Below, piece by piece: positions 43,718-56,166 of a DNA stretch of 64,000 bases. Below the pieces are notes generated by a model, which saw only the letters and a list, made by a program, of their open reading frames with translations, did no database searches and was not told where the DNA came from. Made by a program: the position numbers and the translations under genes. The stretch's first letter is position 1. Each line of letters opens with the position of its first letter. Source of the DNA: Metallosphaera yellowstonensis MK1 (GTDB lineage: Archaea > Thermoproteota > Thermoprotei_A > Sulfolobales > Sulfolobaceae); contig NZ_JH597770.1 in the NCBI RefSeq assembly GCF_000243315.1, positions 541,740 to 605,739 on the forward strand. The letters are read 5' to 3'.

Positions 43718-43938
43718 CAGCAGTTATGGGACTTCAACGTAGCTGAAGTTTTCATCAACCCAGGTTCTACCTAAACGACTTTCGGGAATCTCAGGAACCC
43801 CTCCACGCCCCTCAGGTTCAGCTCCCTGATCGGCTGACTACGGTGACCACGATGAAGATCCTGAGGTAGCCCTGGAAAATAAAAACTTCTCGCTAATACC
43901 GACTTACCAGTCCTCCCTAAGATTCCCATAACTTCTGA
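43718..43938 (-). mobile_element. 221-bp MITE-like derivative of the 55-kb IS
   Basis: The right end (CAGCAGTTATGGGA, 43718-43731) and an imperfect left end (CAGAAGTTATGGGAATC on the minus strand, 43938 down to about 43915) match those of the element at 55036-56160. Between them is the last part of its transposase frame: QGYLRIF near 43875 and RELNLRGVEGFLRF ending at the TAG at 43771, broken by one frameshift. The internal deletion removes about 900 bp. Flanks show no clear target duplication. Confidence 0.75.
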
Positions 43939-55029: not shown

Positions 55030-55035
55030 ACCTTA
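55030..55035 (+). repeat. Target-site duplication, left copy
   Basis: ACCTTA directly outside the left inverted repeat of the IS; the same six bases follow the right end at 56161-56166. Confidence 0.8.
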
Positions 55036-56160
55036 CAGCAGTTATGGGAATCTTAGGGAGGTAATACGAAAAATCCGGTATTGGTGAGAAGTTTTTCGAC
55101 GTCGTCCCGCTGAAAAGGTGCGGAAAGAGACAGATCGAGTTCGCTAGGGAGAGGCTGTCAGGGAGATCAACAGGCTGGGCGTGGTGAGGGGGAAGGGGAG
55201 GAGCAGGAAGGTTAACTGGCGCTAGTCCTCATGGTCCTGGTAGGTGGGAGGGCCAGCGTGAGGAACGGGGCCGAGACGTTCGGGTTGGAACGTGAATTGA
55301 TGGGGCGTTGGGAGAACTTGACGACGCGTGGAGGTCCTGTCAGGCTGGTGAAGGGTCAGGTCGTCATCGTGGACGACACAGTGGACCACGACGCTCCGGG
55401 AGGACGTGAGCCCCTGAGAACTACTGGACCTACTGCCACACCCACGGGAGGTTCGAGAGGGCCAAGCTCCTCACGGTCGCCATAGTGGACCTCGGGCAGG
55501 ACGTTCATGGTGGGAGCTTTCCCCTACGCCGTGAGGAAGATGTTGAATTTGTGAGGGTCACCGAGTTCAAGACCAAGATCGACGTGGCCAGATGTTGGAC
55601 GTGCTCAAGGAGCCCTTCCGGTAGCCAGGGTCGTCTTCGACCCCAGTACTGTCCGAGAAGCTCGTGACGGACAACGTGGTGTCTGAGCTCAAGTCCAACC
55701 GAACTCAGGGTCGGCCCGGGGGACCCTCGAGGAGGTGGAGGGACACCTCCGAGTGGGAGACCCCCTGGAGTCTACTACGCCGACCTGACCCTGGGAGGCC
55801 GACCCATTACGGTGAAGTTGCTAGTCCGGGAACATAAACGTGACTCTGGGACACACGCCAGGTACCTCTACACCACCGACCTCTCGCTCAGCGAGGAAGT
55901 CGAGGAGGCCTGTTGTGTGGGAGATCGAGGAGCTCCACAGGGACGTCAAGGCCCTGGGACTGGAGGACTCCTCATTCTGGAGGAGGGAGAGGCTTCAGGG
56001 TTACCTCACGATCTTCACCATCAACAACGTCGTCAGGGAGCTGGTGGGGGAGCCGAACCTGAGGAGCGTGGAGGCGTTCCTCATGTTCTTGAACGTCATT
56101 TAGGCGGACCACCTGGGCTGATGAAAATCTTTAAGTTACGTTAAAATCCCATAACTGCTG
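55036..56160 (+). mobile_element. DDE-type IS with intact ends, 1,125 bp (ISC1217-like?)
   Basis: Perfect 14-bp terminal inverted repeats (CAGCAGTTATGGGA at 55036-55049 and its complement at 56147-56160) flanked by a 6-bp direct repeat ACCTTA. The inside encodes a transposase on the plus strand that is broken by several frameshifts. Size, repeat length and 6-bp duplication recall ISC1217 of S. solfataricus, but I cannot confirm by alignment. The DNA is much richer in G and C than its neighbours, a sign of foreign origin. A 221-bp deletion derivative is at 43718. Confidence 0.85.
55230..56103 (+). pseudogene. Frameshifted transposase of the 1.1-kb IS
   Basis: Protein-like pieces in changing frames: VKGQVVIVDDTVDHDAPGG near 55345 (first DDE aspartate), FERAKLLTVAIVDLGQD near 55460, HARYLYTTDLSLSEE near 55855 and WEIEELHRDVKALGLEDS near 55920 through the TAG at 56103. 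The spacing before WEIEELHRDVK suggests a Y-R-E-K box typical of the IS4 superfamily, with a small deletion through it (residues around EEACCV replace the expected Y...R). At least four frameshifts, so inactive. Confidence 0.8.
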
Positions 56161-56166
56161 ACCTTA
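56147..56166 (-). repeat. Right inverted repeat of the IS plus right ACCTTA copy
   Basis: 56147-56160 is the exact reverse complement of 55036-55049; 56161-56166 repeats the left-flank ACCTTA. Confidence 0.85.

Follow-up and report, generated by a model that had tools for sequence, protein, structure and literature searches.

The window analysed here, the whole stretch of 64,000 nucleotides from Metallosphaera yellowstonensis MK1, carries a full-length, non-autonomous insertion sequence of the ISC1217 type between two genes, one protoheme-farnesyltransferase-like and the other enoyl-CoA-hydratase-like, both named from their translations (Table 1). The element measures 1125 bp, compared with 1214-1220 bp in those siblings of the same genome whose transposase frame is open. 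The sequence-only reading of this DNA that preceded our work had described perfect 14-bp inverted repeats and a 6-bp ACCTTA target duplication, and it was right on both counts: the two 14-nt termini are 100% complementary, and ACCTTA stands directly outside each of them. Because the same ends recur in at least 59 full-length places of the genome, the element is real and no chance pattern. That reading had also proposed a comparison with the empty site in relatives, which could be carried through in part. In five of five congeners the flanking genes are adjacent and have no element between them, their aligned parts lying 36-253 bp apart, at a nucleotide identity (69-73%) too low to read the exact empty site. 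The window element is a lineage-specific insertion.

Table 1. Features of the insertion sequence and of its target site in the window.
Feature	Position	Strand	Basis
Target-site duplication ACCTTA, left copy	55030..55035		Sequence
ISC1217-type insertion sequence, full-length, non-autonomous, 1125 bp	55036..56160	+	Repeats, sibling alignment
Terminal inverted repeat, left, CAGCAGTTATGGGA	55036..55049	+	Within the first ~31 bp, nearly invariant among copies
Transposase pseudogene (start approximate; the sibling gene has about 369 codons)	55124..56144	+	Alignment to L067
Remnant of YREK-like box (AWRMRWEIEELHRDVK in open siblings)	55908..55950	+	Translations, alignment
Terminal inverted repeat, right, TCCCATAACTGCTG	56147..56160	-	Complementarity to left end
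Target-site duplication ACCTTA, right copy	56161..56166		Sequence

The transposase gene of this copy is thoroughly ruined. Its longest internal stop-to-stop frame has 158 aa, only partly in the transposase frame, and the alignment with the open sibling L067 contains 27 indels, all of them deletions, 20 of which break the frame; the earlier count of at least four frameshifts was thus an understatement. In 159 columns (70 substitutions and 89 gaps) the window copy has a state absent from all seven open copies. A piece of the Pfam profile PF04693, "Archaeal putative transposase ISC1217", is still recognized at 55915-56067 (profile positions 275-326, 45.2 bits), whereas the seven open siblings score 347-362 bits (cut-off 20.2), which supports the suggested placement in the ISC1217 group; open-frame relatives in other genomes match the same profile over its full length. 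Terminal inverted repeats of about 13-14 bp and a 6-bp target duplication are characteristic of this group, and the window element shows both of them together with the PF04693 match. The family resembles the group (PF04693, DDE_Tnp_2) in its length of about 1.2 kb, its 14-bp inverted repeats, its duplications of 6-7 bp and a DDE-type transposase of about 370 aa that spans the whole profile in the open siblings. It differs in that the window copy is a pseudogene and in one residue of the siblings' catalytic box, and the assignment to the group is by Pfam profile. This box had been singled out as Y-R-E-K-like: in the open siblings it reads AWRMRWEIEELHRDVK in translation (W-x2-R-x3-E-x6-K), so that the spacing fits and Trp replaces Tyr, and in the window copy the segment is destroyed, two different frames giving ACCVGDRG and EIEELHRDVK. 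Membership of the IS701 or IS4 families was rejected, since the NCBIfam models reached at best 60 and 72.9 bits with the relatives L042 and L043, below the curated cut-offs of 170 and 250, which indicates a distant relation only.

The search for an intact copy elsewhere in the genome that the earlier reading had called for was successful. With PF04693 we identified at least seven copies open over the whole profile (L067-L073), with frames of 355-384 aa, the same ends as the window element and 94-98% similarity to one another; perfect duplications of 6-7 bp flank five of the seven, and one, L068, has a 1-bp deletion and stops about 14 residues early. Altogether the genome contains at least 59 full-length copies of 1019-1220 bp, three of which (L137, L036 and L149) are aberrant; those retrieved by DNA search are 86-92% identical. 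These tallies are minima because a limited number of candidates was scored. The genome is a draft in 21 contigs, with runs of 100 N near several copies.

Had the window element been inserted intact and then decayed in isolation, one would expect it to carry lesions found in no other copy. We found no variant private to the window copy, either when 38 full copies were aligned with 16 partial ones or in the 59-copy set. Each of its 20 frame-breaking deletions is present in 7-42 of 49 non-intact copies, the window copy included (the 59 full-length copies less the seven open and the three aberrant ones). Six other broken copies, L021, L129, L131, L133, L142 and L144, likewise have perfect duplications. 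The distribution of variation over codon positions is informative in this respect: among the seven open copies, changes at positions 1, 2 and 3 number 30, 22 and 58 (p = 6e-5), whereas bases that are absent from the open copies and common to at least two sequences number 107, 92 and 97 (p = 0.55). Such an even spread implies that the shared bases arose without coding constraint, and yet they are present at several loci. Taken together, the lack of private variants, the shared lesions and the fresh duplication favour the insertion of a copy that was already broken, as the earlier reading had supposed, and we consider this the most likely history of the window copy. Ordinary decay, in which independent point mutations and deletions follow an intact insertion and the ends are kept by luck or constraint, would be in keeping with the large surplus of deletions over insertions in the non-intact full-length copies (1096 against 15 in the 59-copy set, counted per copy relative to L067), and prokaryotic genomes commonly contain broken IS copies. 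As an account of most of the lesions, however, it is already contradicted, unless mutation is strongly hot-spotted, by the absence of private variants and by the occurrence of all 20 frame-breaking deletions at other loci, and we regard it as highly improbable.

Three features expected of an element mobilized in trans are present in this genome: ends intact without a working transposase, open relatives with the same ends, and shared lesions combined with a fresh duplication. On the origin of the window copy itself, the copy most similar to it is L002, identical in 95.8% of the ungapped columns, the differences being spread along the length, and no single parent was identified among the copies compared. 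The lack of a clear parent makes it possible that the gene was broken in place by conversion, an alternative to which we return below.

The intact ends had been explained by a slower decay of the ends than of the gene. This explanation did not hold. In the smaller alignment (38 full copies and 16 partial ones), variants carried by two or more copies occupy 10 of the 74 end columns and 527 of the 1146 interior columns, a depletion at the ends (p = 1e-8), whereas private changes are as frequent there as elsewhere (22 in 74 end columns and 253 in 1146 interior columns, p = 0.20). A second count, on the larger set without L137, L036 and L149, gave the same picture, with shared-polymorphic columns at 14 of 74 against 557 of 1146 (p = 4e-7) and private changes per column at 0.351 in the ends and 0.299 in the interior (p = 0.44). 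When all 59 copies are kept, the ends seem to have an excess of private changes (71 of 551, p = 3e-9), 47 of the 71 coming from the aberrant L137, and shared columns are still depleted (17 of 74 against 586 of 1146). Slow decay of the ends is thereby ruled out, private changes not being depleted there. The depletion of shared variants without a depletion of private ones points to a filter acting at transposition and not to guarding after insertion, that is, only well-ended copies would be propagated.

Unexpectedly, alleles are reassorted between the copies. Among 42 broken ones, excluding the three aberrant, the seven open and seven few-lesion copies, the mean r2 between variants falls from 0.261 at 1-5 bp to 0.083 at 6-10 bp, 0.055 at 21-40 bp and 0.025 beyond 640 bp, where the unlinked baseline is 0.024, and the proportion of pairs with all four gametes rises from 29% at 1-5 bp to 75% at 11-20 bp. 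Linkage is still correlated with distance when only pairs more than 100 bp apart are considered (none of 2000 permutations gave a value as low), and the result was similar with 29 copies; in the small sample of seven open copies, linkage showed no relation to distance. This short-range linkage resembles what has been described for Sulfolobus, where passages of a review by Grogan (PMC4471258) describe how transformation yields several short tracts that are discontinuous and in some cases comprise a single marker, and a part of another article (PMC3914695) describes discontinuous short tracts between wild strains of a natural population. Unlike the transformation studies, which involve a cross, our data concern dispersed repeats of one genome, and exchange by gene conversion would account for their linkage pattern. 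It could be argued that the sharing is only apparent, the same local deletions having arisen independently and repeatedly at short repeats or hairpins. Several deletions do lie between short direct repeats (judged by eye and uncounted), and near-linkage-equilibrium is what independence predicts; nevertheless, many blocks carry complex multi-base alleles, several variants of which occur in at least two copies each, and linkage depends on distance up to hundreds of bp, unlike what parallel mutation would give. We therefore hold such parallel mutation to be very unlikely. One pair of broken copies 3 kb apart, L012 (C19:787489) and L022 (C19:791516), shares an identical run of 438 bp despite an overall difference of 6%, possibly a long and recent conversion tract.

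The flanks of the copies have a history of their own. Perfect duplications occur in 10 of the 18 copies of at least 1186 bp and in 2 of the 39 shorter ones, or in 12 of 59 once two further copies are added; 9 of these 12 duplications have 7 bp and 3 have 6 bp. As 47 of the 59 full-length copies show no perfect duplication, most insertion histories are unreadable. At 57 full-length copies we observed a target preference consisting of an A adjoining the element and a T seven bases out, on both sides, and the 37 shorter copies (<1186 bp) without a perfect duplication keep this signature at each junction. In the 45 copies without a perfect duplication, the left and right flanks of a copy resembled each other no more often than by chance (2 near matches against 2.0 expected with two mismatches, exact matches being excluded by the selection), whereas flank matches between different copies were in excess at one mismatch (46 against 26 expected, p = 0.002) and exact ones numbered 4 against 1.7 expected (p = 0.08). 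This excess was clearest in the 7-bp register (44 copies), with weak excesses also in a few control registers. The flanks of one such copy, L013, lie about 3.8 kb apart and inverted in a congener assembled in one contig (G008). These data are suggestive of a loss of duplications in old copies through flank exchange between copies, although a preference for related targets could give the same excess.

Two relatives assembled as single contigs bear on these questions. In G029, which belongs to another genus, the frame of seven copies (L166-L172) stays open for 286-291 codons and is then shifted at the box by one and the same lesion; this genome also contains L164, an open sibling of full length. 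Six of the seven have 6-7 bp duplications of their own, and complete ends could not be located for the remaining one, L171. Two of these copies, L168 and L169, are 99.6% identical and occupy different sites with different duplications, and short tracts cross between two clades that are 20-25% apart. In six of the seven the part downstream of the lesion at the catalytic box is open in another frame, and a truncated protein or recoding is conceivable there. In G008, of the same genus, 13 loci were fetched and ten copies compared, three partial ones being omitted; they are mosaic, the mean r2 going from 0.841 at 1-10 bp to 0.120 at 321-640 bp and up again to 0.257 above 640 bp, and the trend with distance holds above 30 bp (0 of 2000 permutations) and weakly above 100 bp (64 of 2000).

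The single-contig results imply that neither the movement of broken copies nor exchange between copies is peculiar to the draft assembly. An error of sequencing or assembly that had produced chimeric repeats might be suspected from the 21 contigs, the N runs near some copies, the mosaic alleles and the lack of matching duplications at most old copies. Yet most of the linkage is lost over about 10 bp, which is shorter than a sequencing read, the target signature is kept at the junctions, long open frames adjoin the window copy and many of the other copies, and the same two phenomena occur in single-contig relatives, so that an artefact is hardly credible.

The main alternative is that the window element was inserted intact and was then broken piecemeal where it stands, with dead copies at other loci of the genome as donors of gene conversion. 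The strong mosaicism and fast linkage decay among the copies, the conversion-like patches in the single-contig relatives and the absence of a clear parent are all compatible with it, and frequent conversion would also erase private variants. On the other hand, it requires that 27 deletions and about 70 substitutions were imported along the full length of the element without any change in its perfect duplication, and for the seven G029 copies with the same frameshift, including L168 and L169 at different sites, the simplest explanation is the transposition of a broken copy. We consider breakage in place rather unlikely.

Our preferred reading, to which we give a probability of roughly 0.7, is that the window element is a non-autonomous full-length ISC1217-type copy that was inserted after the ruin of its transposase, moved in trans by the transposase of its siblings, and that the broken copies form a recombining mosaic population. 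According to this scheme, the transposase gene would have been ruined first and the element then copied or moved into the intergenic gap, with the transposase supplied in trans by open siblings of the same genome. The ends would be intact because a copy with damaged ends cannot be moved, and after insertion they would apparently enjoy no protection. Alleles, frame-breaking deletions among them, would pass between loci in very short patches, presumably by gene conversion, making each broken copy a mosaic. Taken singly, the window copy is ordinary, and it is the recombining pool around it that is of interest. For the broader proposal that the dead full-length copies constitute a long-lived recombining population, mobilized in trans, purified only at the ends and reshuffled by gene conversion in patches of about 10 bases between dispersed copies, we see an even chance. 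A literature search, mostly outside subscription journals, returned no published description of these copies.

In the usual cis-preference picture of prokaryotic IS elements, dead copies are dead ends. If our reading is true, prokaryotic IS families need not obey cis-preference, and broken copies may be copied for a long time, holding and exchanging variation. The contrast of private and shared changes between ends and interior would offer a simple test of transposition in trans for any multi-copy IS family, and the decay of linkage a way of estimating how long the gene-conversion patches between natural repeats of Sulfolobales are. The genome would then record a patchy recombination so far known mainly from transformation experiments and strain comparisons.

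Short relatives of the element are also abundant. At 84 places in the genome we found MITE-like elements that consist of CAGCAGTTAT, a spacer of 30-60 bp and ATAACTGCTG, corresponding to the outer 10 bp of both element ends. They have 62-64 bp and several interior types among the 50 listed of the 84 (for example L075:3382-3445 and L076:3675-3738), 14 of the 25 with flanks in hand show perfect duplications of 6-9 bp, and one folds as a hairpin (z -6.9). These elements fit a transposase working in trans. The size range of MITEs is given as 50-500 in a section of PMC10969869. Like the non-autonomous elements of Sulfolobales (SM1-SM4, SM3A and SMN1), which have intact ends and no working transposase and need a related IS according to parts of PMC3718332 and PMC10969869, the window copy combines intact ends with a dead transposase; unlike them, it is full length with a recognisable dead gene, and the MITE-like elements here have 62-64 bp.

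At 43718-43937 the window contains a 220-bp derivative of the ISC1217-type element with an internal deletion. No target duplication is evident beside it, and no further full-length match to this form was present among the 41 matches listed. It consists of 66 bp of one end and 169 bp of the other, and is 78-83% identical to an open copy.
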